Assembly: GCA_937928015.1 (NCBI GenBank)
Contig: CALFXA010000182.1
Span: 1 to 39,647 of the forward strand
Origin: an uncultured Anaerolineales bacterium
GTDB lineage: Bacteria > Chloroflexota > Anaerolineae > Anaerolineales > Villigracilaceae
Direction of reading: 5' to 3'
DNA length: 39,647 nt
In this document: positions 1 through 19,697 of the stretch, piece by piece
How the letters are laid out: each line of letters starts with the position of its first letter
Position numbering within the stretch: position 1 is the stretch's first letter
Made by a program: the position numbers and the translations under genes
Notes under the pieces: model-generated
Told to the model about the DNA's origin: nothing
Seen by the model: only the letters and a program-made list of their open reading frames with translations
Database searches by the model: none

Positions 1-217
1 ATACCTACTCGGTCGAAGCAGACAATGCTGAACTGCGCCACTACTTGGCTCGGCTGGTTCGTAAATCTCGTTGCTTTTCTCGTTGTCCGTATGCTCTGGA
101 GTATGTCTTGCGTTTATTTGTCTTTTGCTTCAATAGCAGACAACTTCATAAGCAACGTTTCCCTGGTTATGCCTCTCATCTAATGGACTTCGTTAGCCCA
201 CGATTTTAGACACTCCC
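1..217 (+). mobile_element. Right end of an IS1-like insertion sequence, cut by the window edge
   Basis: The first bases encode the C-terminus of a DDE transposase on the plus strand. Just after its stop (207-209) comes gacactccc (209-217), a plausible outer end of the element, since IS1-type elements carry their terminal repeat immediately beyond the transposase stop. The left part lies outside the window, so neither the inverted repeat pairing nor the target duplication can be confirmed. Contigs often break at multicopy insertion sequences, which fits this position. The exact boundary at 217 is inferred. Confidence 0.5.
3..209 (+). CDS. IS1-family-like transposase, C-terminal fragment (5' end missing)
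   Basis: An open frame without a start runs from the window edge to a TAG at 207-209, giving 68 residues. It contains NAELRHYLARLVRKSRCFSR, followed by a Leu/Phe-rich helix and an Arg-Gln-Leu-His-Lys segment. This pattern (Glu/Asn-Ala-x-hydrophobic-Arg-His-x-Leu-Ala-Arg-Leu then Cys-Phe-Ser-Arg) resembles the end of IS1-type DDE transposases, where the last catalytic acidic residue lies in the same region. The gene is cut by the contig end and is not frameshifted in the visible part. The family is assigned from memory of the motif. Another small DDE family is possible. Confidence 0.6.
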   Translation, partial: TYSVEADNAELRHYLARLVRKSRCFSRCPYALEYVLRLFVFCFNSRQLHKQRFPGYASHLMDFVSPRF

Positions 218-407
218 GAAATTTCCTGAAATACTGAAATATTAAATTTAATGTTCTGGGTCTCTTGAAACTACCTGGCGGTGGAGGCATTGGCGGAGGA
301 TCAGAAGGAGGATCTGAAGCATTCAAAGATCCATTAGAGGCAACTTGATTTAAAACTCGTTGTTTTGAGTTAGCTTTGAAAGCAAATGCCTCTATGTTTA
401 TTTTCAT
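180..407 (-). CDS. Small proline-rich hypothetical protein, probably truncated by the IS
   Basis: This is a 75-residue ORF beginning 40 bp after the stop of the TIR-STAND-TPR gene, on the same strand and with the same AT-rich composition. Residues 33-45 form a proline-rich stretch (two SDPP units, then PPMPPPP), flanked by Ser/Asn-rich sequence and a basic C-terminal half. There is no signal peptide or membrane segment. The upstream sequence has only a weak ribosome binding site (GGTG about 10 nt before ATG). Its last 30 bases overlap the antisense strand of the transposase gene, so the C-terminal dozen residues are probably read from the inserted element and the original end lost. The function is unknown. 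It may be the fourth gene of the immune operon or a chance frame. Confidence 0.35.
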   Translation of the reverse strand: MKINIEAFAFKANSKQRVLNQVASNGSLNASDPPSDPPPMPPPPGSFKRPRTLNLIFQYFRKFRECLKSWANEVH

Positions 408-447
408 TGTTTATTCACCAAACCCATATTATAAAATAAGATGAAGA

Positions 448-3400
448 TTAATCCTTGAACGAATTCACTAAACCTTCAAGCCTTATCATTATCGCAGGGT
501 ATATCTCCCTTAATCCTTGGATAGTCCATGAATCATATAATTCTCTGCACCATTCCCCTTTTTTTATTTTTTCTTCTGGAAGACTATTTATTTTATTAAC
601 AAGATTGTCATAATGCCTGTCAAATCTATAAAACCCATACCCCTTTTGACGGACGAGCAAAGGGAAATATTCCTTATATTTACTTAACGCAGAAGCGTAG
701 TCTGTTTGTTCAAAAAGCAAATCTCCCAATGTGATATTAACCAGTGCGACAAAAAGGCCTTCCTGGTAATCAATACCTTTTGAAAATTCGACCCTTTCTG
801 CATATCTTTCCATTTCATCATATTTCTTTCTTCGAAGGGCAAACCTAATCGCTTCAAGAAGACTCTCCAAGCTCGCGTGAATTCGTTCTTTAGCATCTGC
901 TTCCAGATAACCAATCTCACAAAGTCTCTGCGCTAGTCCTAAAAGATTTTTCTCCTGCTTTAAATCCTTAAAAGGTGTACTAAAAACTAATTTCCTTCTA
1001 GTACGCCAAAAATCTTCTTCAGGAAGGTCGATTTCGTTAAGCACTTTACTGATAAAGATCTTTAGAGATTTATTAGCATTATTAATATCCACCTTGTCTT
1101 GGCTAGATAGTGGTTTGAATCCCTTCACTTCGTCTCTTAAATCGCCTATCTCAGCTATTACTCTTCCTAATCGATATAAACATTCTGGCAAATACGGTGA
1201 GAGACTATATTCGCGACATAGTCGGAGCGATTCACTCAATGATTGATATGCCGACATTTGAAAAGAGATTGATTCAGCTATTTTTTTGGCGTTTGGTATT
1301 TTTCGAGCTGCATGTCCTGATAAATATTGATTGGCCCCTAAACTCTGGAGGGCATTGCAAATCCATTCCTGTCCGCTTTCATTTGCTTGAAATATTCCAA
1401 TTGCTTCTTGGTAATATTGTTCTGCTACAGATGTATTGCCTTGATAACGGTTAATTTTTGCAAAAGCAAGAAATGCCTCTCCTTTATATTGAATATTGAG
1501 TTTTTTGTTATTAATTAAATTTATTGCAGCATCGCAGTGCCCTAAAGCCTCTGGATATTCCCCTAGCAAGGCTTGAAATTCACTATACTGGATCAAGAGT
1601 CGACATTCTAATGGTATGTTTTTGGATGAGCGAGCAAAAGATAAACCCTTCAAGTAGGAACTCTTTGCACCATCCCAATTGCCTAAGGCTTGATAAATAT
1701 AAGCAAAATAATTTTCGAACACGCCAAGCCAGTTATCATTAATTTTGTCTGTTACATTTTGATAGCCTAAAGAAAGGGTTTCCAAAGCCTCATGATATCT
1801 CCCTTGAAGGAGTAAACATGATCCCCAATACGCTAGATTGCTGAAATATAGCTCTGTTTCATGGTATTCATGAACTAATAATTTAAAAATATTTGCCGCC
1901 TGAGTGAACCGATTTTGTTTATAAAGCCATTCTGCTTGTTCCCTTAAGAAAATATACCCCTTATTTTCTAGCGTATGACGATGCGCTAAAAGCTCATTAA
2001 CAATTAATTCATTAAATGAAAACAGGTTGCGATTTACTGCTTGTGTAAAGTATTCCTTATACGTCTCAATGCCTGCATTATTATCGGCGCGGTCAAGTCG
2101 ATATCCGAGCTGTTCTGTCATCAAGAGATAACGGCGTTCATCGTCTGCTTTTAATTGCTCGATCCTATTGGAATACCAAGTCTCAACAACTGTATCAAAC
2201 AGTTGTCTTCCTATAAGATCGTTAATCCCAAAACTTGGTTTAGTTAAGACGTGCTCTTCAACAAGATCTTGTATGCGATCGTGTAAAGTAAATGACCCAT
2301 CAGGGTTAGATTTTACAATAAAGTGATCTGCTAGTTTTTTAGATATTTGTCCGTATGATTTGAATTCATATAAATTCTCGTCAGATTTAAGAAGGTAATT
2401 TATTATTTCCCGATCATACCGCCTTTTCAGAATTGCCATATCGCGAAGCACTGGATTAATGGATGGCGTTTCTGACTTGACAAAATGGATTAGATTTTTT
2501 TCAACATCTTGACGTGTTAGGTCTTTTGAAATAATGCTCTCTAATCCAGGATCCCCAGATGTGGAAAGATAATTAAGCGCTAATTCGAGACGAAGGGGTA
2601 AACCATCTATGCCTGGTTGATCCCGTAATTTTTTGATATTTTCTGTTGAGATTAAATTGATATCGTAATTAAACCTAGCCGCTTGACGCTTAAAAAACTC
2701 TTCTGTTTCTAAATAGTCAAAAGGCGCAAGATTGATTCTAATTGCTTTAAATGGCAAGGTTAATAAAGGTTTAGTTGGTCTGCCTGCGAATACCACAATA
2801 AGGTTTTCTGCCTTGATTAGAAAGTCATCTATAAACCATCTTCCTAGTTCTGTATTTTGAACGACTTCAAAAGTATCAAAAAGAAAAACGATCTCACGAT
2901 TCGCAGACAAGTCATTTAAGTCTTCAAAAAAGTCAAAGTCAGCCTTTTCTTTCTTAGCGGCCAAAATTGATGATGCTTTATTCATCTTTTCGGCAGTCAA
3001 TTGTTCTTCCTCTGATTTACGAAACTGCGCGAAGTTTTTTTGTCCCAATATATTTATTATTAATTCTCGTACGCCTTTAACTGTTCGGTTCTTTATTTCA
3101 GAAAAGTCGATTGGTCTTGCTACCATTCTGTTTTCGGAATCAAATTTGCTATCTTCGTAAATTCTTCTTAAAAGCCAACTTTTTCCAAGACCGCCACCCG
3201 CTTCATAGTAAATAATATTCTTTTGTCTGCGATAACTAAAAATACTGTAAAACTCTCTTAATGCATCAGCTCTACCAACAAAATACTTTGAAACATTCGA
3301 TGCTTGAGTTTGTTCAATCTCTTTTTCATTTGTCTTATATGGAATAGCAATTGTAGCGCTAGTGTTAGTTACATTATTTTTTTTTACACGATAGCTTTGT

Positions 3401-3795
3401 CGTATCGCATTTTCTAATCTTTGAAAACCATCTTTTGCATAATAATCAATATACTGACGGTCATTAAGTTCGTCAGGAACACTACATCTGTCAAGTTTAA
3501 GGGGGATAATAAAAATATCTAAACTAAACATCCCACTTGCTATTTCTTTTGCTAAATTCAGTTCCTCTACTAAAACACCTCTTTTGGCAACCGAATTCAT
3601 TGACATACAAAAGACAAAAGCATCCGACTCCTTGATTGCTTGTTTTATACTATCTTTCCAGTTTGCACCACCAAGAATTTTTTCGCGATCCATCCAAGGC
3701 TTTATGCCAGCAACTTCGAGTTTTTTATACAATACAGCTACTTTTTTTGCATCTTCCCTCGCATAACTAATGAACACCCTAGGTTTTCGATTCAT
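448..3795 (-). CDS. TIR domain - STAND NTPase - TPR protein (candidate antiphage immune receptor)
   Basis: This is a 1115-residue cytosolic protein. Residues 5-135 form a TIR_2-type domain (VFISYARED at 7-15; SDAFVFCMS at 57-65; an acidic VEEL at 76-79 where TIR NADases carry the catalytic Glu, most likely E78). A receptor-type ATPase follows: YFVGRADAL at 171-179, Walker A AGGGLGKS at 199-206, Walker B IVFLFDTFE at 302-310, a VFAGRP sensor strand, and a GLPLRLEL motif like the GxP of STAND/NB-ARC proteins. Residues from about 650 are helical TPR-like repeats, the usual sensor part. The W normally four residues before the TIR Glu is replaced by Val. The ribosome binding site AAAAGGTGAT precedes ATG. 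The gene starts 65 bp after another STAND ATPase gene. From family knowledge the likely role is ligand sensing by TPR, oligomerisation by STAND, and NAD+ cleavage by TIR. The trigger is unknown. Confidence 0.88.
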   Translation of the reverse strand: MNRKPRVFISYAREDAKKVAVLYKKLEVAGIKPWMDREKILGGANWKDSIKQAIKESDAFVFCMSMNSVAKRGVLVEELNLAKEIASGMFSLDIFIIPLKLDRCSVPDELNDRQYIDYYAKDGFQRLENAIRQSYRVKKNNVTNTSATIAIPYKTNEKEIEQTQASNVSKYFVGRADALREFYSIFSYRRQKNIIYYEAGGGLGKSWLLRRIYEDSKFDSENRMVARPIDFSEIKNRTVKGVRELIINILGQKNFAQFRKSEEEQLTAEKMNKASSILAAKKEKADFDFFEDLNDLSANREIVFLFDTFEVVQNTELGRWFIDDFLIKAENLIVVFAGRPTKPLLTLPFKAIRINLAPFDYLETEEFFKRQAARFNYDINLISTENIKKLRDQPGIDGLPLRLELALNYLSTSGDPGLESIISKDLTRQDVEKNLIHFVKSETPSINPVLRDMAILKRRYDREIINYLLKSDENLYEFKSYGQISKKLADHFIVKSNPDGSFTLHDRIQDLVEEHVLTKPSFGINDLIGRQLFDTVVETWYSNRIEQLKADDERRYLLMTEQLGYRLDRADNNAGIETYKEYFTQAVNRNLFSFNELIVNELLAHRHTLENKGYIFLREQAEWLYKQNRFTQAANIFKLLVHEYHETELYFSNLAYWGSCLLLQGRYHEALETLSLGYQNVTDKINDNWLGVFENYFAYIYQALGNWDGAKSSYLKGLSFARSSKNIPLECRLLIQYSEFQALLGEYPEALGHCDAAINLINNKKLNIQYKGEAFLAFAKINRYQGNTSVAEQYYQEAIGIFQANESGQEWICNALQSLGANQYLSGHAARKIPNAKKIAESISFQMSAYQSLSESLRLCREYSLSPYLPECLYRLGRVIAEIGDLRDEVKGFKPLSSQDKVDINNANKSLKIFISKVLNEIDLPEEDFWRTRRKLVFSTPFKDLKQEKNLLGLAQRLCEIGYLEADAKERIHASLESLLEAIRFALRRKKYDEMERYAERVEFSKGIDYQEGLFVALVNITLGDLLFEQTDYASALSKYKEYFPLLVRQKGYGFYRFDRHYDNLVNKINSLPEEKIKKGEWCRELYDSWTIQGLREIYPAIMIRLEGLVNSFKD

Positions 3796-3860
3796 ATATC
3801 ACCTTTTGAAAAAGCTTTGAAATCGTTGGAATAAAAACGATACATCGCACCGGAGTCTTA

Positions 3861-5303
3861 TCAAGATTCAGTATTCAATAATTTTTCGAGCTCGTAAAGT
3901 GAAGATTTTCGGATTAGCTCGACATACATACTGGGAACAACATCTTTGTATTCAGCTTCATTTGCGAGACGTATAATCTGTTCAAGAAGCGACATCTTTT
4001 CTAAGGGATTAATGTTTGAGCTTGCAATTTCATTGATTCCTTTATTGATTTCCAGTGATGCTGGTTCTAACTCATTAAATAGGGCTCTGTAATAGATTAA
4101 GTCTAAAAAAAATAAATAGGACGAATTGTATTGATCTGTAAGCCGTTTGAACCATTGAAGTACAATTTTTTGAACTTGAATGAACAGTGTTTTGTGATTT
4201 AACTTCAAATCCAAGGACAAAATTTTTCTCATTGTAAAATCCATGGCAAATCCCCTGTTTTGTATATCCCAGCTAATGTATTTTGTCTCTTCAAGCTGTC
4301 GGGTAATATCTCTATACTTTGACGCCTTCCCACTCGTATAAGATTCTGGGCGAGTCGAAACAAGAATTTCACGTAATAAAGCGTAATCAAACCACTTAAG
4401 TTGCGATACTATTCTTAAAACATATTTCAGTTCGGGTGTTAACTTACGTACCGTGTGCCTATAAAAAAACTGAACTTCGTCATGAACATACTTTGCCTTC
4501 TTCGTGTCACTGAATGCTGCCATTATTCCTTTTTTTTCATATACATTTTCAACAGCTTTGTATACTAAAGCATTGCATGCAGGAATTCCAAAAGATAATT
4601 CGAAGATCCGACTTGCTAACTCGTTTGCCGAATTACCATCATATCCAATTTGTTTTCGCACTGAATTAGTATTAAAAGGCTGAATGTGCCATTCTATTAA
4701 TTGTTGCTTGACATCAAAAGTCCGCCATTTATTTTGTGACTGACTAGCCAATACGATAAAAACCTTCTTGGTTGAGGTCAATGGAGAAAAAATAGTTTTT
4801 TCAAGCCAGTGAAAAACGTCGGGACGACAATACTCAGTAGAATCAAATAGAAAAATCAAAAAACGCTTTTCGTGTAAAAATAAATATTTTTTCGTACTAT
4901 TAACAAAATCCAAGGTTAAGTCGTTTATGGACTTTTCTGTCACCTGGAGTGAAAAAAGGTTTGTCGCTTGACGATGAGGGCTACTTAGTATTTTTTTATT
5001 CAATTCTGTAAAAATCATCTCACATGACTTTGTATATGAGATTCTATTTGCCCCCAAAAAAACGTCCTTAAAATCAATAAAAACTATCTCATGTTTATTA
5101 GCTAAACTTTTCTCCATGATTTCATGCATCAACGTGCTTTTGCCTATCCCTGGTATTCCCCAAAAATCTATGATGGATTTTGCAGTATTACTTTTATTCC
5201 GTAGTTTAAGGAAATAATCTTCAAATAGATTGATTTCTTCAAACCTGTTTACGATATTTATCGAATTTGTACTTGTTTCAGTTTTCATTTTTTTCTCGTG
5301 CAT
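3861..5303 (-). CDS. Stand-alone STAND-type P-loop ATPase
   Basis: This is a 480-residue protein with an ATPase core near the N-terminus. Counting from the chosen ATG, Walker A GIPGIGKS is at 49-56, Walker B FLIFLFDST with the acidic D154 follows, then a hydrophobic VFIVLASQS sensor strand and LSFGIPACN, matching the GxP motif of STAND ATPases. A winged-helix-like region and a helical tail follow. No effector or TPR domain is visible. The start is uncertain: a TTG at 5318, ATG at 5303 and ATG at 5288 are all in frame, and all overlap the end of the upstream MetE-like gene (stop at 5278-5280), so translation is probably coupled. The next gene downstream is a TIR-STAND-TPR receptor. It may act as a regulatory or co-oligomerising partner (inference). 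It is AT-rich, unlike the chromosomal background. Confidence 0.75.
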   Translation of the reverse strand: MHEKKMKTETSTNSINIVNRFEEINLFEDYFLKLRNKSNTAKSIIDFWGIPGIGKSTLMHEIMEKSLANKHEIVFIDFKDVFLGANRISYTKSCEMIFTELNKKILSSPHRQATNLFSLQVTEKSINDLTLDFVNSTKKYLFLHEKRFLIFLFDSTEYCRPDVFHWLEKTIFSPLTSTKKVFIVLASQSQNKWRTFDVKQQLIEWHIQPFNTNSVRKQIGYDGNSANELASRIFELSFGIPACNALVYKAVENVYEKKGIMAAFSDTKKAKYVHDEVQFFYRHTVRKLTPELKYVLRIVSQLKWFDYALLREILVSTRPESYTSGKASKYRDITRQLEETKYISWDIQNRGFAMDFTMRKILSLDLKLNHKTLFIQVQKIVLQWFKRLTDQYNSSYLFFLDLIYYRALFNELEPASLEINKGINEIASSNINPLEKMSLLEQIIRLANEAEYKDVVPSMYVELIRKSSLYELEKLLNTES

Positions 5304-6213
5304 TAATGAATTGCTCAACTTTACGCGCCACTTCTGCTAATCTACTTATTATTTTTAAGCCTAATCGCTCTCTTTGTGATTTTTCATCACTTTCAATAAG
5401 CCGAAGTCCGCAATTAGGGGTTATTGCCCATAAGTTATCGGCGCCATATAAGTCAACTGCTTCTACAATTTCTCTAATAAGACGGCGCGGGCTTTCAATA
5501 TGATTATCGTTTACGGGCATGCACCCATAGGCTATTTTTTTATGGCTATTAACCAAAGTTGTAGAATTGACACTTATAAGCCTTCTGAGATGTTGCCCTT
5601 CAACGCTTAATATATCTACCTTCGCAGAAAGTAATTTATTGAAAATATGCCTTGTGTCACTGCAAACATGCAGAATTGAATGTTTGATATGTTTGGCTAT
5701 TATTTCAATTGCCTCCAGACCAACTTCTACGTCTGCTCCATATGCAAATGATGGCTCATCAATTTGAATGTAATCAGCGCCAGCAGCAGATAGTGCTTTT
5801 GCTTCTTCAGCTAAGGCGAAAGCAATATCAATAACTAGTTTGCGGTCAGTGTTTTTTGAATAGTATGTGGGGTTACGTATTTCTGAAGATTGCGCTAAAA
5901 ATGTTGGACCTGTGAGGTGTGCCTTAAATTGCTTTTCAGGTGCTAGTGATTTTGCATATAAAAATGATGCAACTGTTATTGGATGCTCTGGCGGTTTAAC
6001 CTTGTTATCAATTGGATAACGCCCGACTCTGCTACTAAACCCATCTATATGCCCAGCAAAAATACCTGCTATATCCGATTCAACTTGACCGTCTACTAAG
6101 AGGTCTAAACCCGCCTCAAGCTGATCTTTAATCGCACGTTTAATTGAATCTTCGTTTGAAGCAGGTAGAGGAAGTGGTGGATAACTCCCCGTAGTAGTGG
6201 CTATTAGTTTCAT
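5278..6213 (-). CDS. MetE-like core methionine synthase / cobalamin-independent methyltransferase homologue
   Basis: This 311-residue protein matches only the C-terminal catalytic barrel of MetE; full-length MetE has about 750 residues. It begins ATTTGSYPPLP as the family does. The zinc ligands are all present in family order: H182 and C184 (HVCSD), E205 (VEGQ) and C268 (TPNCGL). GPTFLA (102-107) and QIDEP (150-154) are also conserved. It is therefore probably a catalytically competent methyl transferase from a folate or another methyl donor to a thiol. The substrate is not known: some archaeal and bacterial core enzymes use corrinoid proteins instead of folate. It is the first gene of the AT-rich operon and overlaps the STAND ATPase gene. 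The ribosome binding site is GGGTG, 4 nt before ATG. What a methionine-synthase-like enzyme does beside STAND/TIR proteins is unclear. Confidence 0.82.
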   Translation of the reverse strand: MKLIATTTGSYPPLPLPASNEDSIKRAIKDQLEAGLDLLVDGQVESDIAGIFAGHIDGFSSRVGRYPIDNKVKPPEHPITVASFLYAKSLAPEKQFKAHLTGPTFLAQSSEIRNPTYYSKNTDRKLVIDIAFALAEEAKALSAAGADYIQIDEPSFAYGADVEVGLEAIEIIAKHIKHSILHVCSDTRHIFNKLLSAKVDILSVEGQHLRRLISVNSTTLVNSHKKIAYGCMPVNDNHIESPRRLIREIVEAVDLYGADNLWAITPNCGLRLIESDEKSQRERLGLKIISRLAEVARKVEQFINAREKNEN

Positions 6214-6257
6214 GCTTCACCCAATTATTAGCCTCTTAATATATGAACGAGAAATTA

Positions 6258-6263
6258 ATTATA
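6258..6263 (-). promoter_or_regulatory. -10 element for the MetE-like/STAND/TIR operon
   Basis: Read on the minus strand this is a perfect TATAAT, 45 bp upstream of the ATG at 6213. No good -35 sequence lies 16-18 bp further upstream, so the promoter may be weak or activator-dependent. It lies at the AT-rich edge of the island, just before the GC-rich repeat region. Confidence 0.45.
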
Positions 6264-6289
6264 CTACCTTTTTCCGAATTAGATTGAAT

Positions 6290-6766
6290 GAAATATCAAA
6301 TCCAACCGGAGAGGGGAGAGATTGTAAATTGGAATCAAACCCTGCCAATTAATAGTTGGCCCCTTGCATACGTTGCGGGGAACACTGCCGAAATCCCATT
6401 GGAACCTCTGAGACATGGGTCTCCTCGGCGTCTTCGTGCCCTGTGGTTGGATTTTCTGGACCTTTTGCAGGAAGTCAATCCGCTCGATCTGCCATTTTGA
6501 GGGATTTTCACCGCGGAGACGCAGAGAACGCAAAGAAACCCTCGAAGAAATCTCCGCGACCTCCGTTCCTCCGCGGTTCGAGACAGGCAATGCCTCCCTT
6601 TTTCAAGGGTCGGGCTGCCTAATCACCTCAAAGACGACCCCGACCTCCTCTTCCACTCCCCCGACCCACTGCTGCGGGTCAACGAAGTGGGATGCAGGTT
6701 CGATTCAGACCCTGATATCCTTCCCCACAGCCTCTTAAACTCAAATAAACAGCCATTCACCTAAAC
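6290..6766. other. Gene-free, repeat-rich stretch with possible decayed coding sequence
   Basis: No convincing gene is seen. Short frames on both strands lack ribosome binding sites and family features. The stretch holds a dispersed hairpin repeat (6508-6578). From about 6618 to the TAA at 6762-6764 there is a plus-strand frame rich in Asp, Pro and Leu that could be the tail of a dead gene. The frame continues in phase into the 21-bp repeat array that follows. This is a graveyard between the AT-rich island and the coiled-coil gene. Confidence 0.5.
6508..6578. repeat. Dispersed hairpin-type repeat (CCGCGG ends)
   Basis: The sequence begins CCGCGGAGACGCAGAGAACG at 6511 and ends with CTCCGCG...TCCGCGG at about 6552-6576, forming a long imperfect inverted repeat with CCGCGG at both ends. 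Elements of this kind (accgcggagacgcagag...) are scattered in many bacterial and metagenomic genomes. Only one copy lies in this window, so the repeat status comes from recollection, not from the window. Confidence 0.45.
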
Positions 6767-6969
6767 TACGGAACTCCGTAACTCGAATACGGAGCTCCGT
6801 AGTTTGATTCCGCCGCATGAAATTCAAAGTACGGAGCTCCGTCATTTGAATCAGTAGCTCCGTCTTTTGAATCCATCCTTCCATATTAGAAATACGGACT
6901 ACCGTCATTTAGTTATGGACCTCCGTATTTTGATTACGGAGCTCCGTATTAAGAATTCATCGCTCCGTA
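6767..6969. repeat. Ten-unit array of 14-bp palindromes at exact 21-bp period
   Basis: Units start at 6767, 6788, 6809, 6830, 6851, 6872, 6893, 6914, 6935 and 6956. The consensus is TACGGAGCTCCGTA plus a 7-bp AT-rich linker such as gtttgat or ttttgaa. Units 2 and 9 are perfect palindromes and unit 4 differs at one base. Units 1, 5, 7, 8 and 10 are partial, while units 3 and 6 have largely decayed but keep the phase. Weak traces of two earlier units (from 6725) may exist. A period of 21 bp equals two helical turns, and also seven codons. One frame reads a heptad of TELRxLN type but carries a TAG at 6852-6854 region, so it is probably not translated now. The array ends about 100 bp before the start of the coiled-coil gene. 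Confidence 0.85.
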
Positions 6970-11955: not shown

Positions 11956-14172
11956 TTATTTTCTTATTTTATGGACTAGTATAATATCACCTGAGATTTC
12001 ACAATGTAGTGTCGGCGTTTGACTCAGACCATTTTCAACTGACCAGAGTTTCACTTGATCTGTAACATATCGATTAGCATCTTGTATTGTGACAAAACCT
12101 TTGTTTTCATAATCAGCTTTACCCTGTAGGGCTTCTAGTAGGTAATGGGTAAATACACTTCTGCTGTTCTGAAGCCACTCATAGCTTCGTTGTCCTTGTT
12201 CACAAGATGCTAGTATCGCAAATCCCTTTGCATCATCAAAAACTCTCTGAATAAAAGATTCAGTCATTTTCTCTCCCCCTTTTCCAAAGTTTACTCCCGA
12301 ATGGCAAGCGTCAATTATAATCACCTTGGCTCTTGCCTGGGCAGAATTCATGATTTCTTTTATTGTTGAAATAGAAATAGAAGTCTCTTCTATTAGTACC
12401 TGATGGCCACTTCTTGTTACCAAATAAGACTCTCCATCTTTTTCTGTCCCATGACCACTATAATAAAATAGCAATAGGTCATCTGGTTCCGTAGCTGTCG
12501 CCATTGACTTAAGTGTAACTAAAATATTGTCACGAGTGGGGATCTCGGTGCCTTGATCAGTTATTGTTTTTACACGACTTTTTTCATAGCCGTTCTTAAC
12601 TATTAACTCACTCAGATCTGTTGCGTCTTTTGCGCAAACCTGCAGAGGTAGGAAGTTAGCCACATCTTCGTAATGATTTACACCAGCTAGAAGCGCCCAT
12701 TGTCTTCCTTTACCATAAATAACTTTTTGTAATTCCTCACTCTCAAAATCATTTTCCTTGGGTTTTTGCTCTATATTAACTAAATAAGAATCAATTGTAT
12801 TGACAATTTGATCAACCAACTCGGCTGTAGGTAAATTGTTTACAAAAGCACATTGAATATCGTCTTTAATCAATTCTGGTAGATAGGTCTTTTCAACAAT
12901 ATATGGTAATATTTCAATGTCTTTATCCTTCGCTTTCCACCTATCAAATGCAGTTTTTAATTCATACTTGCACCATTCGCTTTTGTGATAATCATCATTT
13001 ATTAGGGCAACAAAAATATTACAATCACGAAGCTCTTTCTGAAGTTCTTGTTGCCATGCTACGCCGATTGATAAGCTTGATTGATACTGAAAAAATTGGA
13101 TGTTTACAGTTTGAAAGCCTTTTACCAAGCTCAAGGCAAGGGCGTTTAAAGAATGTGGGTTGCTAATAAAAATTTTGGCGGGCATACGCCCAGCGCTTAA
13201 AAAATATTTCTTCCCTTTTTCGAAAGAATCCAAAAGGTTACGCGTTTGTAAGAACTTACTTAGGCATAGATAGATTTCGTAAATAAGATTTTCTTCGTTT
13301 TCCCACTTGATAATTGGAATATCCTCATCCCTAATGTGGTATTCTTTTAATAAATTTGGCAGTATTATTTTTGAATCGGCCACTCCATGTGAGGCTTTGG
13401 CGATTCGAATACATGGTAATCCTTTTGCGTGAATGAAACCAAGCGCATCAAAGGCAATATATGGTTGTTGAATATCCATTACAATTAATTCTAGTTCTGA
13501 AAGCTTTCGAGCAAATAACTGTGCATTTTTAAAGTTGGGAGAGATGACCTCACCTGTATAACCACCCACATTGCTAAGTACCGATTTTATGTTCTCAATT
13601 ACTTGAGACGAATAAACATCATCTTTTGTGGTATCAATAATTATCCCAGCCTTTGCAGTCGATTTTAGGATTCGACCCTCGTAGGCAACATAGTCTCTGA
13701 CCAATTCTGCAAACTTGCGTACTATGTCTTGATACTCATCCCTTTTTTTTTCTAGGGTTATTCTTTCAAAAATATGAACGCAATCTGAAGTACCAAACAT
13801 ATTGAAGTTGAGGCCACGTTCAATGAAAACCAGACGAGGTTTCCCAGCCAATTCTGCTAGATAGTTTTCAAAAGCTATATAGGAAGAATGCGTCACACCT
13901 TGTTTGCCTAAGGGTATATCTCCTATTTTTTCGATTCTTTCTGGGCGGCTTGTAACAACTGCAATAAAACACTCACTATACATCATCATTCTTTCTAGGT
14001 GCGGAACTACAAGTCTGTCAGACTTTGGATCCACGGTGAAGAAAAAATTTTCTTCACTAAATAGTTCCCAAAAGAAAAGGTTTACTTGTCTATCAATGGC
14101 ACGGTAGCTGTGGCTGAAGTATGCTTGGATTCCTTGCTTGCGAGTGGGTGAAATAGCAACTGTTTTTTTCAT
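11956..14172 (-). CDS. Multi-TIR and caspase-like (peptidase C14) fusion protein
   Basis: The 738-residue protein has four modules. (1) Residues 14-120 are TIR-like (IQAYFSHSYRAID at 15-27; ECFIAVVTSRP at 67-77). (2) Residues 174-260 form a second Rossmann-like domain (AGIIIDTTKDDVYSSQ; LELIVMDIQ; IAFDALGFIHAKGLPCIRI) resembling TIR or deoxyribosyltransferase-like folds. (3) Residues 331-430 are a clear TIR domain: AKIFISNP, CNIFVALINDDYHKSEWCKYEL, with S398, W400 and the candidate catalytic E404. (4) Residues 489-735 are a caspase-like protease: LLAGVNHYED, then LLLFYYSGHG with catalytic H574 and IIIDACHSG with C623. The protein is soluble. It overlaps the upstream SLOG-like gene by 4 nt. 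TIR domains commonly make or break NAD+-derived signals, and caspase-like proteases execute cell death in several bacterial defence systems. Activation of the protease by a TIR product is inferred. Confidence 0.87.
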   Translation of the reverse strand: MKKTVAISPTRKQGIQAYFSHSYRAIDRQVNLFFWELFSEENFFFTVDPKSDRLVVPHLERMMMYSECFIAVVTSRPERIEKIGDIPLGKQGVTHSSYIAFENYLAELAGKPRLVFIERGLNFNMFGTSDCVHIFERITLEKKRDEYQDIVRKFAELVRDYVAYEGRILKSTAKAGIIIDTTKDDVYSSQVIENIKSVLSNVGGYTGEVISPNFKNAQLFARKLSELELIVMDIQQPYIAFDALGFIHAKGLPCIRIAKASHGVADSKIILPNLLKEYHIRDEDIPIIKWENEENLIYEIYLCLSKFLQTRNLLDSFEKGKKYFLSAGRMPAKIFISNPHSLNALALSLVKGFQTVNIQFFQYQSSLSIGVAWQQELQKELRDCNIFVALINDDYHKSEWCKYELKTAFDRWKAKDKDIEILPYIVEKTYLPELIKDDIQCAFVNNLPTAELVDQIVNTIDSYLVNIEQKPKENDFESEELQKVIYGKGRQWALLAGVNHYEDVANFLPLQVCAKDATDLSELIVKNGYEKSRVKTITDQGTEIPTRDNILVTLKSMATATEPDDLLLFYYSGHGTEKDGESYLVTRSGHQVLIEETSISISTIKEIMNSAQARAKVIIIDACHSGVNFGKGGEKMTESFIQRVFDDAKGFAILASCEQGQRSYEWLQNSRSVFTHYLLEALQGKADYENKGFVTIQDANRYVTDQVKLWSVENGLSQTPTLHCEISGDIILVHKIRK

Positions 14173-14783
14173 ATGTCAATTTCCCAATATTTGTGTCCAT
14201 CACGAACTTCTTCCATACGAATTTTTTCGTGGACCAAAGAATACCCAGAACTTTCAAGACTTTCGCACAATTCTAAGAAACATTTTGTTCCCCCATTTCC
14301 CGTGCTTGGAGATTGCGAGTCGTACAAGACTATATTTACTATTTGAGCATTAAGAATCTCTTGAATGCCGAGTAAAAAGAAGATAATCGCATGTTGGTTG
14401 TCTTCGAAGTCTTTATCATTTGTGTATCCTTTGGGATTCACATAAAAAACATGCTTTGCATTTCCCAGTACATTATAAAATCGTTTGACCCATTTTTCAC
14501 CATCCTCTGGGAAGGAAACAGACTGAAGAATAAAATCTTCCTTATTCTCAAAGGGCAAAATTATGCAAACGGGGATTTTAAGGTTAATCGACTCCTCTGC
14601 AAAGATAATATCTCCTCCACACGCAGCAGAAGATACTGTGATTTCGGGGTTGTATCTCTCCAGGCATTGGCGAATAGCAAGACGAACAAGAGACTCGGCT
14701 GATGGAGGGAAGCGCGGTGGTTTTCGCGTTGGCTTATCTATCATATGTCCGGCAAATCCCATTATGCATCTTGCAATTTCCAT
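14169..14783 (-). CDS. SLOG/Rossmann-like predicted nucleotide-binding protein
   Basis: The 204-residue protein opens with a strand and glycine turn (CIMGFAGHMIDKP at 6-18). A long helix (SAESLVRLAIRQCL) follows, then VSSAACGGDIIFAEESINLKIPVCIILPF at about 50-78. The order of strand, GG-D loop, helix and IPVxxxLPF strand is typical of SLOG/LOG-like nucleotide-sensing folds (GGxxGxD-AEEA...). The last third (IVNIVLYD, then a variable loop) completes an alpha/beta fold. AAAGGA precedes ATG, and a good promoter lies upstream. The stop overlaps the TIR-caspase start (ATGA), so the two proteins are probably made in fixed ratio and act together. SLOG domains sense TIR-made nucleotides in type I Thoeris. 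Family assignment is from the fold pattern only, without a profile search. Confidence 0.62.
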   Translation of the reverse strand: MEIARCIMGFAGHMIDKPTRKPPRFPPSAESLVRLAIRQCLERYNPEITVSSAACGGDIIFAEESINLKIPVCIILPFENKEDFILQSVSFPEDGEKWVKRFYNVLGNAKHVFYVNPKGYTNDKDFEDNQHAIIFFLLGIQEILNAQIVNIVLYDSQSPSTGNGGTKCFLELCESLESSGYSLVHEKIRMEEVRDGHKYWEIDI

Positions 14784-14820: not shown

Positions 14821-14849
14821 ATAATATATCATATTTATTCTTCAGTCAA
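14821..14849 (-). promoter_or_regulatory. Promoter of the SLOG / TIR-caspase operon
   Basis: Read on the minus strand: TTGACT (14844-14849), a 17-bp spacer, TATTAT (14821-14826). It lies about 37 bp before the ATG at 14783. Only one promoter of this quality occurs in the 145-bp gap, so the two-gene operon is probably expressed on its own. Confidence 0.65.
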
Positions 14850-14928: not shown

Positions 14929-16668
14929 TTAATCCATACTTGTCACAGCCACCACACGCCCCTGCACATGGGCATCTCGCGTGATCAGGATGGGATTATG
15001 GTAACTGACGCCCGTCTTGGGATCCTGTTTGTAGGTCGATTCCGAGAACAATCCAAAGGTGACTGGCCTGTCTGTTGAGGAGGGATCCGTCCGTTCGAGG
15101 CGCTTGACCACCAGTTGCGGTACCTGCGTCTCGTCAGGTAGGACGGCCACCACGATCTGCCCCACGCAATCCTCCAGGTCACACGCCACCCGGAACAGCA
15201 CCATATCGCCTGGTTGCATAGGGATGGGTTCGGCCTTGTCCATGCTGTGGCCGTGGACTTTGAGCCAGCCATATTCCTGTCCGTCGTTGGGCGGCAGACA
15301 AATGCGGTCGTTGTGGACGAACGTCACATGATAGGCCTTCCCCTCGAAGGTGAAACTATGCGACTCATCCACGGCGTCCACCCAGACCAATTCGGATGGA
15401 TTGGGCAGCACGGGTTCCCCGTTGGGACCCGCCGCCACATGCCCATAATAGGGTGTGCTGGGGATGATGACCCTCGGCGGCGAGGCGGGCGGCACAGAAG
15501 TCTTTCTTGTTGAGCGTGTCCTATGGAACGCGGGTCCCCATGCGGAGCGCGGGATGGTGGAAGGCCTGCGTTTCCTCCAGGTCATAAGCAGGTGGTTGGC
15601 CAGATTGTGGACCGGGGCCCGCTCGGGTTGCGTAGATGGCCCATGCGGAAGCCGCACCGTGATCCGCTCAATCAGGTTCTCGATCTCCTGGTTCTTTTCG
15701 GCGTCACCATTGGCGGCATTCTTTTCCAACAATTCTTCGAGCAGGGAACGGGCCTTCTCCAGGTGGATGTGGCAGGAGATCTCGTCGCCGCGGCTCAAAT
15801 GCAGCAGGCCGCGCATCCAATGCGCAACGGCCTGGTTGCGCAGGTCATTTCCGCTCTCGAAACCGCGCACGGCGCTCCAGTTATGTTGCAAGGCCAACGC
15901 CTGCTGCTCCTCGCGGATGTGCGCCAGCAAGGCACGACAGTGAGCCAGAAACGCGTCGAGGAAGGGCTCGGGCGGCCGCTTCTCCCGCTTCAATTCGTTG
16001 AGCATGGAACTCAGGTCCGAGGCTGTGGCATGAATCTGTTCCTCGTCGTTCAGTTTCAACTGGCATACCGCGCGTCGCAAGTCTTCCACCAGCTTTGCGG
16101 AATGGGGTGGCCTGAAAAATTGGAATACATCTATGAGGTCCCCGGCGGGCACACGCCCCCCGCGCACGGTCAGCACGCCTAGCATGGCGCTGCTGCTCCC
16201 GCGAATGGCCTCCAGATGATCCTGGTACTGCCCGTCATACATCCCCTGGCGCCTGTCTTCCTTTCCAAGATCGGCGAGTATCTCGACCGATTCTTCGATC
16301 TGCTCCTCCGCGCTGGACGGGTCCCCCTGCTTGTAGTACAGCATCCCTCGAAACCAGCGACTGAAGGCATATTGCAGGTCCTTGCCCTGATTATTGAAAT
16401 GGTGCGCCGAAAGCTCGGCGGTCAGCAGGGCGTTCTCGAGATCGGCGGAATAATAATGCGTCAGGGCCAGGAGGATGTAATAGTAGGGAGTCTTCTTGGA
16501 ATGGCGGTCAGTATCCAGTTGAGCTTGCAGGTCGCGGATCAGGCTGTGACTGGTGGCACGGTCCAGGTGTGTGTTCAACATGCGCTCGAACAACGCCCGC
16601 ACCTCCCGTTCCTGGACCTCGGAGGAGGCCAGCCGATTAAGGGGTTGAGCCAGTTCTGGTAGTGTCAT
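14929..16668 (-). CDS. TPR-like helical protein with C-terminal LexA/S24-type self-cleaving domain
   Basis: The protein has 579 residues. Residues 1-315 are helical and TPR-like (YYYILLALTHYYSADLENAL; FSRWFRGMLYYKQGDPSSAEE; HWMRGLLHLSRGDEISCHIH). A basic Pro/Ser/Arg linker covers about 340-400. Residues 405-575 resemble peptidase S24: the cleavage-site tetrad VAAG (A413-G414, the same residues as in LexA), VHGHSMDKAEPIPMQPGDMVLF with nucleophile S475, and LVVKRL with general base K522. LexA and UmuD use Ala-Gly, Ser and Lys in this order. No DNA-binding domain is present, so it is not a LexA repressor. It is the last gene of an SPFH-SPFH operon, overlapping the second SPFH gene by 32 bp. A membrane-tethered stress switch is possible (inference). 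Confidence 0.8.
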   Translation of the reverse strand: MTLPELAQPLNRLASSEVQEREVRALFERMLNTHLDRATSHSLIRDLQAQLDTDRHSKKTPYYYILLALTHYYSADLENALLTAELSAHHFNNQGKDLQYAFSRWFRGMLYYKQGDPSSAEEQIEESVEILADLGKEDRRQGMYDGQYQDHLEAIRGSSSAMLGVLTVRGGRVPAGDLIDVFQFFRPPHSAKLVEDLRRAVCQLKLNDEEQIHATASDLSSMLNELKREKRPPEPFLDAFLAHCRALLAHIREEQQALALQHNWSAVRGFESGNDLRNQAVAHWMRGLLHLSRGDEISCHIHLEKARSLLEELLEKNAANGDAEKNQEIENLIERITVRLPHGPSTQPERAPVHNLANHLLMTWRKRRPSTIPRSAWGPAFHRTRSTRKTSVPPASPPRVIIPSTPYYGHVAAGPNGEPVLPNPSELVWVDAVDESHSFTFEGKAYHVTFVHNDRICLPPNDGQEYGWLKVHGHSMDKAEPIPMQPGDMVLFRVACDLEDCVGQIVVAVLPDETQVPQLVVKRLERTDPSSTDRPVTFGLFSESTYKQDPKTGVSYHNPILITRDAHVQGRVVAVTSMD

Positions 16669-18055
16669 CGGGTTTATCCAGGGTCTTCGGATTTCTGTCG
16701 AGGAAGGTCTGCAATTGTTCGAGCGTGTCGAGGGTTTCCTTGGCCAGGTAGGCGCGGATTAGGGGGTCCTTGAGGCTTTCGTCCAGGATGCTGGAGAGCG
16801 AGAGCAGCACCGGCTCGGTGAACTTGCCGTCCCGGTTGTTGTGTTCCAGACCCTCGGCGATGGCCAGGATCAACTCGTATTGCGCCTCGGCACGCGCCTC
16901 CTCACGGGCGCGGATGTCGAAGGCCTTGGCCTTGCCATCGATGATGGTGGAGATACCCTGCCGTTCGGCCTTCCACAACTCCTTCTGACGCTCCTCCACC
17001 GTCTTGGGAATGTCGATCTTGAGAATCTGGAAGTCGGTGATATACACTCCGAAGCCGTTGGTGATGTGGTTGAGCTTCTCGTAGATCTCGCGGACCGTCT
17101 GGGGCGAGAGGATCTGTCCGCTATGGCGGCTGGCGATGAACAGGTCGTCGAGCACGCGGCTGCCGATGTAGCCAGGCACCACGCCTGTTACCTGACCCCA
17201 GGCCGCATCCACCCAGTCGAATTCTTCGGGGTGACCCTCCTCACGCTTGGGCCAGCGGACGGCGTAACGCTCGATGGCTTTTTTTACCGCTAGCGGGTCG
17301 AATGGATACACCAAGTTGGCCTCGGAGTCCTTCACGGATGGATTGCCGATGCGGCACTCCATCCGCGCCTCAAGTTCGATCTTGATCCCGTCTTTGGTCC
17401 AGGCCCCGAACTTCCCCATCCTGACCTTGGGCCGCAGGTCCACCACATATTTGATGGTCTCGTACCATTCGAGCACGGGGACCCTGTCTCCGGGGCCGAC
17501 CACACGCGAGAAACGATTGCCACGCTCCAGGTACAGGGCAAAGCCATCGAAAATAATCAATTGAGCAGGGCCGCCCATGTGACGCGTCACCCAGGCGGGC
17601 CATTCATCCTCCTGGGTGATCTTTCCGTCGCGGACGAGGATGTAATCGAAGGGCGCGAACATGCTCAACGGCGGGGGCAGTTTTCCCTTGCCGTACAGCC
17701 GATGGTTGATGATCTTCGATGCAGATTCCGCGATGTGCCCGGGCGCATGGTAGAAGTCCTCGAAGAAATGGATGGCCGCAATCATGGCAGGCTGATAGGA
17801 CACCACGAGGAAAACTACCAGGACGAGGATGAACAGGATCAGCCCGAATGCCAGTTTGAATTCCCACGGATAGACGGATGTGGCAATCAGGATCAACAGG
17901 TTCCAACGCACCAGGAGGAAACCCAGCACACTCAGGAAGCTGAACATCAGCGTCACGCCCAGCAGGGAGGAGTGGCGGCTCGAGTCGAGGAACGCCTCAT
18001 CCTTGGTGTAGGCGGTCTGCCATTCAGCGGGGTTGGTGGTCGGCTGGATGGGCAT
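16637..18055 (-). CDS. SPFH/band-7 domain membrane protein (second of two)
   Basis: The protein has 472 residues. Two or three membrane segments lie at about 32-48, 51-62 and 68-88. A cytosolic or periplasmic SPFH domain spans about 150-350 (GDRVPVLEWYETIKYVVDLRPK; TKDGIKIELEARMECRIG; VYITDFQILKIDIPKTVEE). An Ala/Glu/Arg-rich coiled coil follows (about 355-400: KAKAFDIRAREEARAEAQYE), then a helical tail. This is the stomatin/flotillin-like plan, in which proteins oligomerise into membrane rings or microdomain scaffolds. The start lies one base after the stop of the first SPFH gene. Its 3' end overlaps the TPR-S24 gene. Paralogy with the upstream SPFH protein suggests a hetero-oligomer. Confidence 0.82.
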   Translation of the reverse strand: MPIQPTTNPAEWQTAYTKDEAFLDSSRHSSLLGVTLMFSFLSVLGFLLVRWNLLILIATSVYPWEFKLAFGLILFILVLVVFLVVSYQPAMIAAIHFFEDFYHAPGHIAESASKIINHRLYGKGKLPPPLSMFAPFDYILVRDGKITQEDEWPAWVTRHMGGPAQLIIFDGFALYLERGNRFSRVVGPGDRVPVLEWYETIKYVVDLRPKVRMGKFGAWTKDGIKIELEARMECRIGNPSVKDSEANLVYPFDPLAVKKAIERYAVRWPKREEGHPEEFDWVDAAWGQVTGVVPGYIGSRVLDDLFIASRHSGQILSPQTVREIYEKLNHITNGFGVYITDFQILKIDIPKTVEERQKELWKAERQGISTIIDGKAKAFDIRAREEARAEAQYELILAIAEGLEHNNRDGKFTEPVLLSLSSILDESLKDPLIRAYLAKETLDTLEQLQTFLDRNPKTLDKPDDTTRTGSTP

Positions 18056-18056
18056 G

Positions 18057-19697
18057 CTACTCCTCCGAGTCCGGGAAGAACTGGGATTGCCATTCCTTGA
18101 AGGTGTTGTCCAGGTCGGTGATGGTCTTCCCCTCGGGCTGTTTGTGCAGGTGATCCTGCAAGGTGCTCAGGAATCGGGTGGCAATCACGTAGCGCGGCAA
18201 CTGCGGATGCATCTCCTGGGTTTTGTGCAGGCCGTCGGCGATGGATTTCAACAGGCGCGCCTCGGCGAAAGCCCGCGCCTCCAGTTGAGTGCGCTCGGCC
18301 TCGGCTTCGGCCTCCGAGAGGATCTCCTGTCGCTTGCGCTCCCATTCCGAGCCCCAGGTGACCAACTGCTGCTGCGAGATCCCGTCCACCTTGGTTTCCT
18401 CGCCACGGTCATCGAAGTGGAAGTTGACCACCCGCCCGGCCACCAGCAGGATGCCCGCCGCCCGCAGGGTCAGCGCGGCCCCTTCGCGAATCTCCTGCGC
18501 CACGATGTCCATGGCGTTGGCGAAGCGAGTATCCTCGGCAGGACGCCAGAGCTCGTCCAGGTCCTTTTGTGAGATGACCTTGCGAGCCCGGTCCTCGATC
18601 ACGTTGACCGCCCACTGGTCCCAGTAAATGATGGTGTTCTCATTCCCTGACTTGGTCCCGGTCACACACATGGCGGCCTGCACCCGCTGCGGCGAGTAGG
18701 GGAAGCTGCCTGCTGTATGCGAGGGACGGTCCGCGCCGCGCAGAATGGGATTCATCCGCCGCAGCGTGTTGTACAGGTCGTGGTCCCAAGGCTCGGGGTC
18801 GATACGGAAAGCGGTGAAGACGATTGCCTTGAAGGGGATGCCGTCCTTGCTGATGACGTCGATCTCATGCGAACGTAATTGCAGGCGCAGGTCGAAAATC
18901 TGATCGGGACGTTCCATCTTGCCCGTGAACACCAGACCGGGTCCGGCCACCCGCGAGAACTTCAGCCCGGAACTCAGGGCCGTCACCTGGTGAGCGGGAG
19001 TCCACACCAGGCCCGGGCGCCACTGTAGCTTTTCGATGATAGGCACAGGGAAGTCCGAGAAGTCCCAGGTGAAGTCGCCGGGAATGCGTGTCTCGGGTGT
19101 CTGCCAGGCGTGTTCGCCCGCAACGATCATCGGCGACTGGATGCCCCAGGCATACGAAGCCAGCGCTTTGAAACGCATCCGCTTCTCGAAGCGGTCCTCG
19201 GGATTTGCAGCAGGCAGCAGGATGACCGCCACGCTGTACAGAGTCACATAATAGGAGAGCAGGATGGGCGCTGAAAGGAAGAGCAACCCAGGCCAATTGT
19301 CGAGCCAGTATCCCCCAAGAACCACGGCGATATGGAAGAGTGACGAGTACAGCCAGCGGCGTCCGCCGTGATCGCGCCCCAGGAGAAAGGTGAGAAATAG
19401 TAACAAACCACCCGCCAGGAGCCAACGGTAGAATGTTGGGTCTTTTATCAAGTTGATTTTGGCAAATTGATGGAGGAGTTCGGGGGCGGCCCATAGCGCC
19501 GCAACAATCAGGACTCCAACCCCCAGGATGATGGTCTGTTGCAAGGTGTCGATCAAGTCGGGACGGTTGTGTTTCTTTCTGGCTGTCTGGATTTTTTTGG
19601 CTGTATCACGTATCACGAACACAAGGAGATACCCCAGGATGGCCGCAAGGCCCCCGAACAGGAACAACAAGTCGAGGACGTAATTTACATTGTCCAT
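18057..19697 (-). CDS. SPFH/band-7 domain membrane protein (first of two)
   Basis: The protein has 546 residues. At least four membrane segments lie in the first 180 residues (7-27, 52-70, 88-104 and 115-176, the last holding two or three). An SPFH domain follows (RVAGPGLVFTGKMERPDQIFDLRLQ; SKDGIPFKAIVFTAFRID), then AGILLVAGRVVNFHFDD and an Ala/Glu-rich coiled coil (WERKRQEILSEAEAEAERTQ). It opens a three-gene operon and its stop almost touches the next start. It shares the SPFH plan with its neighbour but has more membrane helices. The operon starts 111 bp from the divergent PHP gene. No substrate or partner can be read directly. A scaffold for the TPR-S24 protein is inferred. Confidence 0.8.
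   Translation of the reverse strand: MDNVNYVLDLLFLFGGLAAILGYLLVFVIRDTAKKIQTARKKHNRPDLIDTLQQTIILGVGVLIVAALWAAPELLHQFAKINLIKDPTFYRWLLAGGLLLFLTFLLGRDHGGRRWLYSSLFHIAVVLGGYWLDNWPGLLFLSAPILLSYYVTLYSVAVILLPAANPEDRFEKRMRFKALASYAWGIQSPMIVAGEHAWQTPETRIPGDFTWDFSDFPVPIIEKLQWRPGLVWTPAHQVTALSSGLKFSRVAGPGLVFTGKMERPDQIFDLRLQLRSHEIDVISKDGIPFKAIVFTAFRIDPEPWDHDLYNTLRRMNPILRGADRPSHTAGSFPYSPQRVQAAMCVTGTKSGNENTIIYWDQWAVNVIEDRARKVISQKDLDELWRPAEDTRFANAMDIVAQEIREGAALTLRAAGILLVAGRVVNFHFDDRGEETKVDGISQQQLVTWGSEWERKRQEILSEAEAEAERTQLEARAFAEARLLKSIADGLHKTQEMHPQLPRYVIATRFLSTLQDHLHKQPEGKTITDLDNTFKEWQSQFFPDSEE

Follow-up and report, generated by a model that had tools for sequence, protein, structure and literature searches.

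A 39,647-nucleotide contig from an uncultured Anaerolineales bacterium (CALFXA010000182.1; "the window" below means this whole stretch) encodes on its minus strand a 738-residue protein in which three TIR-class modules, together a platform of about 470 residues, are followed by a caspase-like protease. A second gene, for a 204-residue YpsA-like SLOG protein, lies directly upstream and overlaps it. We propose that the two genes form an abortive-infection module: SLOG would gate the TIR-class nucleotide platform, which would turn on the protease in cis. We consider this reading evenly poised between right and wrong. The parts of the pair are as follows.

11956..14172, minus strand: platform-caspase gene, an open reading frame of 738 residues with an ATG start (Pfam, AlphaFold2)
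14169..14783, minus strand: SLOG (YpsA-like) partner gene, an open reading frame of 204 residues (homologues, hhalign)
13678..14139, minus strand: module 1, residues 12-165, TIR/DrHyd-class domain with a DNPH1-like predicted fold, Y18 and E102
13243..13659, minus strand: module 2, residues 172-310, domain of predicted TIR fold, no conserved Glu seen in helix 241-250
12769..13185, minus strand: module 3, residues 330-468, canonical TIR with F335 and E404 (Pfam TIR_2, hhalign)
12706..12768, minus strand: low-confidence linker between platform and protease, residues 469-489
11998..12705, minus strand: caspase-like protease, residues 490-725, H574/C623 and D621

Three TIR-class modules joined to a caspase-like protease

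Module 3 is recognised as a TIR domain by its sequence. Pfam TIR_2 matched residues 334-446 (E = 6.7e-14, 52.9 bits, cut-off 28) with the glutamate in the SxWCxxE motif, and comparison with 21 TIR_2 proteins by hhalign gave a probability of 99.6 (E = 5e-25). An earlier note on this DNA had described a clear TIR domain with E404 in WCKYEL, and the domain lies where it was said to be. The same note saw two more TIR/Rossmann-like modules ahead of the TIR and advised a profile and structure search of residues 1-330. No Pfam family matched these residues at E<=1, yet an AlphaFold2 model of 318 residues (predicted local distance difference test, pLDDT, 89.5; predicted template modelling score, pTM, 0.87) contained two complete alternating alpha/beta modules, at residues 15-165 and 174-307, which bears out the description at the level of predicted fold. 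The full 738-residue protein was modelled with pLDDT 76.4 and pTM 0.55. In predicted-structure searches the solved look-alikes of residues 12-159 were DNPH1, NDT and TIR proteins, and those of residues 172-310 were plant TIRs, level with the N-glycosidase BcmB; because residues 13-163 take up most of the list of structural look-alikes, families absent from it may still match module 2. Top fold matches of module 1 were to DNPH1, including hydroxymethyl-dUMP entries, and the CMP/hydroxymethyl-CMP hydrolase MilB ranked below them. GFAT/SIS chains headed the Foldseek results for residues 1-318, at a TMq of about 0.24 and a root-mean-square deviation of about 21; we rejected a SIS-domain identity and regard these matches as spurious tandem-Rossmann overlaps.

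Sequence alone places module 1 in neither the NDT nor the TIR family. The 738-residue protein had no Pfam match to Nuc_deoxyrib_tr (PF05014) at E<=1, and hhalign gave module 1 a probability of 1.9 (E = 0.025) against 17 NDT family members and 7.7 (E = 0.0045) against other TIRs. When the profiles of modules 1 and 3 within the family were compared, they matched at E = 3.1e-4 (probability 39) and S96..E102 paired with S398..E404, which is suggestive but not decisive. PDB sequence profiles for module 1 and for the SLOG protein yielded nothing useful.

The protease was assigned by a Peptidase_C14 match over residues 490-725 (E = 2.8e-25, 89.8 bits, cut-off 21.4). H574 in SGHG and C623 in DACHSG, the residues singled out by the earlier note, were found at those positions, and together with D621 they are conserved in all seven aligned caspase-type proteins, the window protein included. 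The model for EACC1-associated caspases, NF047832, scored 109.8 bits against a cut-off of 140. The metacaspase-type D621 would presumably direct cleavage after Arg or Lys. Because the linker at residues 469-489 is modelled with low confidence (pLDDT 33-42) and holds four Lys, release by self-cleavage is possible. We rejected the idea of a basic (Lys/Arg-rich) linker, since the four Lys are set against five acidic residues, and single Lys are the only candidates for self-cleavage. Pfam recognised no NTPase or sensor domain in the window protein, unlike its nSTAND relatives, and a trigger must therefore act on the platform or on the SLOG protein. Base shuffling of the region, repeated 200 times, gave no stop-free run longer than 177 residues, so the 738-residue reading frame is no product of chance.

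Two types of putative active site on one platform

Conservation was counted over 55 aligned platform rows, gaps excluded. Module 1 keeps SHSYR, which includes Tyr18, in 53/53 rows, and R76, S96, E102 and K111 in 54/54 each. In module 3, F335, S337, N338, Y363, W373, S398 and C401 are present in all 55 rows, and E404 in 54, the lone exception being an Asp in P0033. Both putative catalytic glutamates are kept across all C-terminal types, down to about 30% identity. Module 2 differs in that no conserved Glu was seen in helix 241-250 (eight rows of A8, by eye). The putative catalytic residues named in the earlier note are conserved, E404 in 54/55 rows and H574 and C623 in 7/7.

According to the excerpts of PMC11204291 drawn on here, TIRs with NADase (NAD+-cleaving) activity usually carry Phe or Ala at a site that in EcThsB2, NDTs and DNPH1 is occupied by a Tyr forming a hydrogen bond with the catalytic Glu. 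In the sets used for comparison, the residue at this site was Tyr in 17/17 Chloroflexota NDT proteins and Phe in 21/21 TIR_2 proteins. We take Tyr18 to occupy this discriminating position because hhalign aligned it with the TIR Phe and because a constant offset of 6 at the start of several DNPH1 rows suggests register with DNPH1 Tyr24; the NDT register was set by eye. The active site of NDT/DNPH1 N-hydrolases combines a Tyr following strand 1 with a Glu on the helix that follows strand 3, and Y18 and E102 of module 1 are candidates for these two residues. We read modules 1 and 3 as carrying two different putative active-site types, marked by Tyr18 and Phe335, on one chain. This split, together with a module 2 whose helix shows no conserved Glu by eye, fits the earlier suggestion that the Rossmann modules divide roles between them.

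A constant platform with exchangeable C-termini

The homologue search, in which the best 7,996 candidates were scored, returned 58 matches, and 51 of these carry all or part of the platform. Their C-termini were nSTAND/AAA (20), caspase (8), CHAT (7), a second TIR (6), PNP (4), EAD8-CHAT (2) or not recognised (4); one of the eight caspase-type matches, P0005, is the window protein's own fragment. These labels are mainly precomputed Pfam assignments, with 14 of the 51 rescanned, and P0036 and P0038 (second TIR) and L006 and L007 (EAD8-CHAT) were labelled without a scan of their own. On a platform tree of 57 rows the seven labels require 10 changes (minimum 6, shuffled mean 31.9), and one supported clade (95/90) mixes caspase, CHAT, second-TIR and platform-only proteins. 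As judged from these alignments and trees, the platform is the constant part and its output end has been exchanged repeatedly in evolution. Because the caspase is only one among several exchangeable C-termini, we regard the platform as the conserved core. The TIR-caspase fusion described in the earlier note is present here, with the caspase as one of several ends of the platform.

Nine genome loci with the platform (L001-L009) were available, seven from Chloroflexota and the others from Actinomycetota and Acidobacteriota. A caspase is fused to the platform in none of the nine; the fused form is known here from the window and from metagenome proteins only. All three Chloroflexales loci (L001-L003) have an operon of SLOG (partial in L001), platform-nSTAND and finally, as a gene of its own, AAA_35-caspase; its caspase shares 46-49% identity with that of the window. 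The platform-fused caspases group together in the caspase tree (83/69, 87% of bootstrap trees), and their nearest relative is the SIR2-caspase L012, which is cut by a contig end (94/92). An origin of the fused gene by simple merger of the L001-L003 operon genes was rejected as stated, since the tree places the fused caspases beside this SIR2-caspase and apart from the operon caspases.

Other fusion partners of the window caspase family are SIR2 (L012, L014), a kinase (L015) and a simple TIR, whose match exceeds the TIR cut-off in L022 and falls just short of it in L016. The joining of TIR and caspase in a single protein is thus not unique in itself. L016 (922-3270) encodes a 782-residue chain with TIR-like, caspase and kinase-like regions, the first and last just under their cut-offs.

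The distribution of the platform is rare and patchy. At E<=1e-15, 3 of the 82 genomes from the order of G002 had it, as did 4 of the 396 from the class of G004; in a phylum sample of 400 genomes, 11 matched at E<=1e-25, nine of them via the caspase alone. Plasmid, phage and viral collections gave no match (viral: 0 of 21 candidate stretches).

A SLOG partner gene

The stop of the SLOG gene and the start of the platform-caspase gene share 4 bp (ATGA). The SLOG protein had 40 homologues at E<=1e-3, including its own fragment P0059. After its family profile had been extended with genome relatives, hhalign matched it to YpsA-family SLOG with a probability of 96.7 (E = 3.4e-10, 160 columns), where the comparison set was four of five hits, two of the four being over the Pfam cut-off; A4 alone gave a probability of 49.4 (E = 1.7e-4). 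We call the protein YpsA-like on this basis. The curated Pfam SLOG model did not match the window protein, and YpsA matched one of the 40 members, at E = 0.17 and below the cut-off; YAcAr (PF10686) gave two weak matches in nine genomes, none over cut-off. In the excerpts used of PMC9503650, the YpsA-like SLOG clade is reported to include sensors of cyclic ADP-ribose (cADPR), and TIR/DrHyd/SLOG domains to split N-glycosidic bonds if active and to bind nucleotides if inactive.

In L002 and L003 a SLOG gene stands immediately upstream of the platform, and in L001 the SLOG gene is truncated by the contig edge. For 13 of the 51 platform proteins the longest contig was exactly as long as that of a SLOG homologue, against a chance mean of 0.16, and we take these equal lengths to suggest linkage. 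Among the caspase-type relatives P0001, P0002, P0004 and P0006 had such a length match; P0003, P0007 and P0008 did not. Platform and SLOG distances co-vary over 16 pairs (Mantel r 0.77, 0/9999 permutations), part of which common descent alone would yield, and over a subset of eight pairs (r 0.57, 38/9999). The functional unit looks like two genes, SLOG and platform-caspase. The earlier idea that signal and executioner are joined in one chain holds in so far as TIR-class modules and protease are fused, but not for the unit as a whole, to which the overlapping SLOG gene seems to belong.

In three further loci the upstream slot holds LSDAT_prok, a SLOG of the TRPM type.

L005:8718-9629, L006:9033-9926, L007:9086-9982: LSDAT_prok genes, directly upstream of the platform

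These loci pair a bacterial sensor domain of the TRPM type with a TIR platform of the EAD8-CHAT type (L005-L007; L005 scanned). We rejected LSDAT as a member of the same SLOG family: hhalign against the window SLOG family was empty (E = 0.42 and 0.17), and what the two are seen to share is the genomic slot. L004 has a SLOG-containing gene nearby, not directly upstream; there TIR-WD40, SLATT_1 and SLOG/TPR-S/TRAF-binding genes stand in a row beside platform-CHAT (182-6959), a dense cluster of conflict genes. No SLOG was recognised in L008 and L009, which have an unrecognised open reading frame on the same strand upstream of platform-PNP (L008:8229-9239, L009:8590-9138), with hydrophobic stretches by eye and a gap to the platform gene of about 640 bases in L008 and 7 in L009.

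Genomic setting of the pair

The guanine-plus-cytosine (GC) content of the gene pair is 0.378, and that of the flanking genes is 0.567 and 0.595; the two-gene module was probably acquired horizontally. One promoter-like site lies upstream of the pair, in a scan that found 16 such sites against 11.3 (standard deviation 4.0) in shuffles.

14821..14849, minus strand: promoter-like site TTGACT-17-TATTAT, weak, consensus match only (10/12)

No structural RNA was found close to the pair; the window holds one distant tRNA. Upstream of the pair, a 579-residue protein (14929-16668, minus strand) resembles TPR proteins at its N-terminus and S24/LexA close to its C-terminus, both below the Pfam cut-off. 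Its gene is adjoined by two SPFH/Band-7-like genes (16637-19697), of which the second match is weak. Another stretch of low GC (0.36; 448-6213, minus strand) contains an 1115-residue TIR-TPR protein (448-3795, TIR_2 4.6e-24), preceded by a 485-residue open reading frame (3861-5318) with weak NB-ARC/NACHT-like matches below cut-off and adjoined by a methionine-synthase-like gene (5278-6213). This stretch is possibly another TIR/NTPase conflict system.

Comparison with known systems

Papers are cited here from excerpts. Type IV Thoeris likewise unites a TIR domain with a caspase-like protease: TIR-made N7-cADPR activates the protease (PMC12847820; Rousset 2025, cited through PMC12847820 and PMC12799240). 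In that system TIR NADase and effector come from separate operon genes (PMC12847820); here a single chain holds TIR and protease together with two more TIR-fold modules, and a SLOG gene is the partner. Of the NCBIfam Thoeris models ThcB4 alone was reported, at 26.3 bits against 220, with no type IV model in the output; the best PADLOC ThsB match to the window protein had E = 0.0028, with no cut-off shown. Membership of type IV Thoeris is not supported, given the single chain and the distance of the sole reported model from its cut-off.

TM-macro Thoeris pairs an NADase-type with a Tyr-type TIR (EcThsB1 and EcThsB2), the latter resembling NDT and DNPH1, but these are two proteins with a membrane macro-domain effector, whereas here Phe-type and Tyr-type modules share a chain with a protease; in the excerpts of that account no NADase activity is reported for EcThsB2 and its substrate is not named (PMC11204291). 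SIR2-SLOG (type I) Thoeris also combines SLOG and TIR in a nucleotide-signal logic (PMC11204291), with SLOG fused to the SIR2 effector, in contrast to the free YpsA-like SLOG and caspase found here. L022 and L016 resemble the window protein in joining a TIR (narrowly below cut-off in L016) to a caspase of its family, but have a single short N-terminal TIR without the platform and, in L016, the kinase-like C-terminus. STAND/EAD/caspase conflict systems swap parts (TIR, caspase, PNP, EAD) around constant cores (Kaur 2020, PMC7159879; Kaur 2021, PMC8195603); those cores are MoxR-vWA, EACC1 and NTPases, and the excerpts of these accounts do not describe the present platform. In the open-licence literature we found no description of a three-module platform with Tyr- and Phe-type sites, a dedicated SLOG partner and this set of outputs, and an earlier description elsewhere is possible. 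Because TIR-to-caspase signalling, TIR-caspase chains of other layout and the exchange of parts are already known, we regard the system as a variant of a known theme.

A proposed SLOG-gated switch and its alternatives

In the two-gene module that we favour, an infection cue would lead to assembly of the platform and/or to processing of NAD+ by module 3 and of a second nucleotide by module 1. The SLOG partner would bind a ligand and gate the switch, and either proximity or a cut at a Lys of the loose linker would switch on the protease of the same chain. The protease would then cut cell proteins after Arg or Lys, and growth would stop. A more specific form, which we put forward as a doubtful conjecture, is a nucleotide-to-protease relay with the Tyr-type DNPH1-like site of module 1, the Phe-type NADase TIR site of module 3, a ligand-binding TIR fold between them and the SLOG gate, in which the platform would trigger whichever output is fused to it (protease, ATPase or PNP). 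Module 1 may read phage-altered deoxynucleotide pools, because its best fold matches are DNPH1, with hydroxymethyl-dUMP entries, and then MilB.

Some of the same observations could be explained if module 3 alone were catalytic and made a cADPR-type signal, which the caspase would answer as in type IV Thoeris, modules 1 and 2 serving as inert folds for dimerisation or ligand binding. In its favour, module 3 is of canonical TIR type (F335, E404), and signalling from a TIR to a caspase has precedent (PMC12847820, in excerpt). The invariance of E102, S96, R76, K111 and SHSYR in module 1 (54/54 or 53/53) is hard to explain for an inert fold, however, and no separate ligand-binding domain is recognised beside the caspase, where the C14 match fills residues 490-725. 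We consider such an all-in-one NADase-caspase rather unlikely. The TIR modules could also be assembly devices, as in Toll-like receptor adaptors, with SLOG sensing a ligand and nucleating filaments, and with protease proximity as the output and no nucleotide consumed. Tandem TIR-fold modules with exchangeable outputs fit a scaffold of this kind; initiator caspases are activated by proximity, and the present kind may be too. A pure scaffold would leave unexplained why the putative catalytic Glu is kept in 54/54 and 54/55 rows, to about 30% identity, and we judge it improbable.

Caspases in bacteria have been linked to functions outside immunity as well, and the pair might be a nucleotide-regulated proteolytic switch for stress or development in multicellular-type bacteria. 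Patchy presence (3/82 and 4/396 genomes), exchangeable C-termini, low GC and relatives fused to nSTAND, CHAT and EAD8, common parts of conflict systems, all speak against this, and we hold it to be very unlikely. For the SLOG-gated abortive-infection module, support comes from the domain make-up by sequence and predicted fold, the intact putative catalytic residues, the SLOG association, the exchangeable C-termini and the low GC; its anti-phage role, trigger, chemistry, order of steps, horizontal origin and P1 specificity are what we infer.

If this proposal is true, the TIR/DrHyd/SLOG class would be used four times in one two-gene switch, and the window protein would offer a single-chain system in which to study how TIR chemistry turns on a caspase. 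The natural swaps of caspase, CHAT, ATPase and PNP would separate the sensing platform from its output, and the platform would be a test case for the role of Tyr-type TIR domains.
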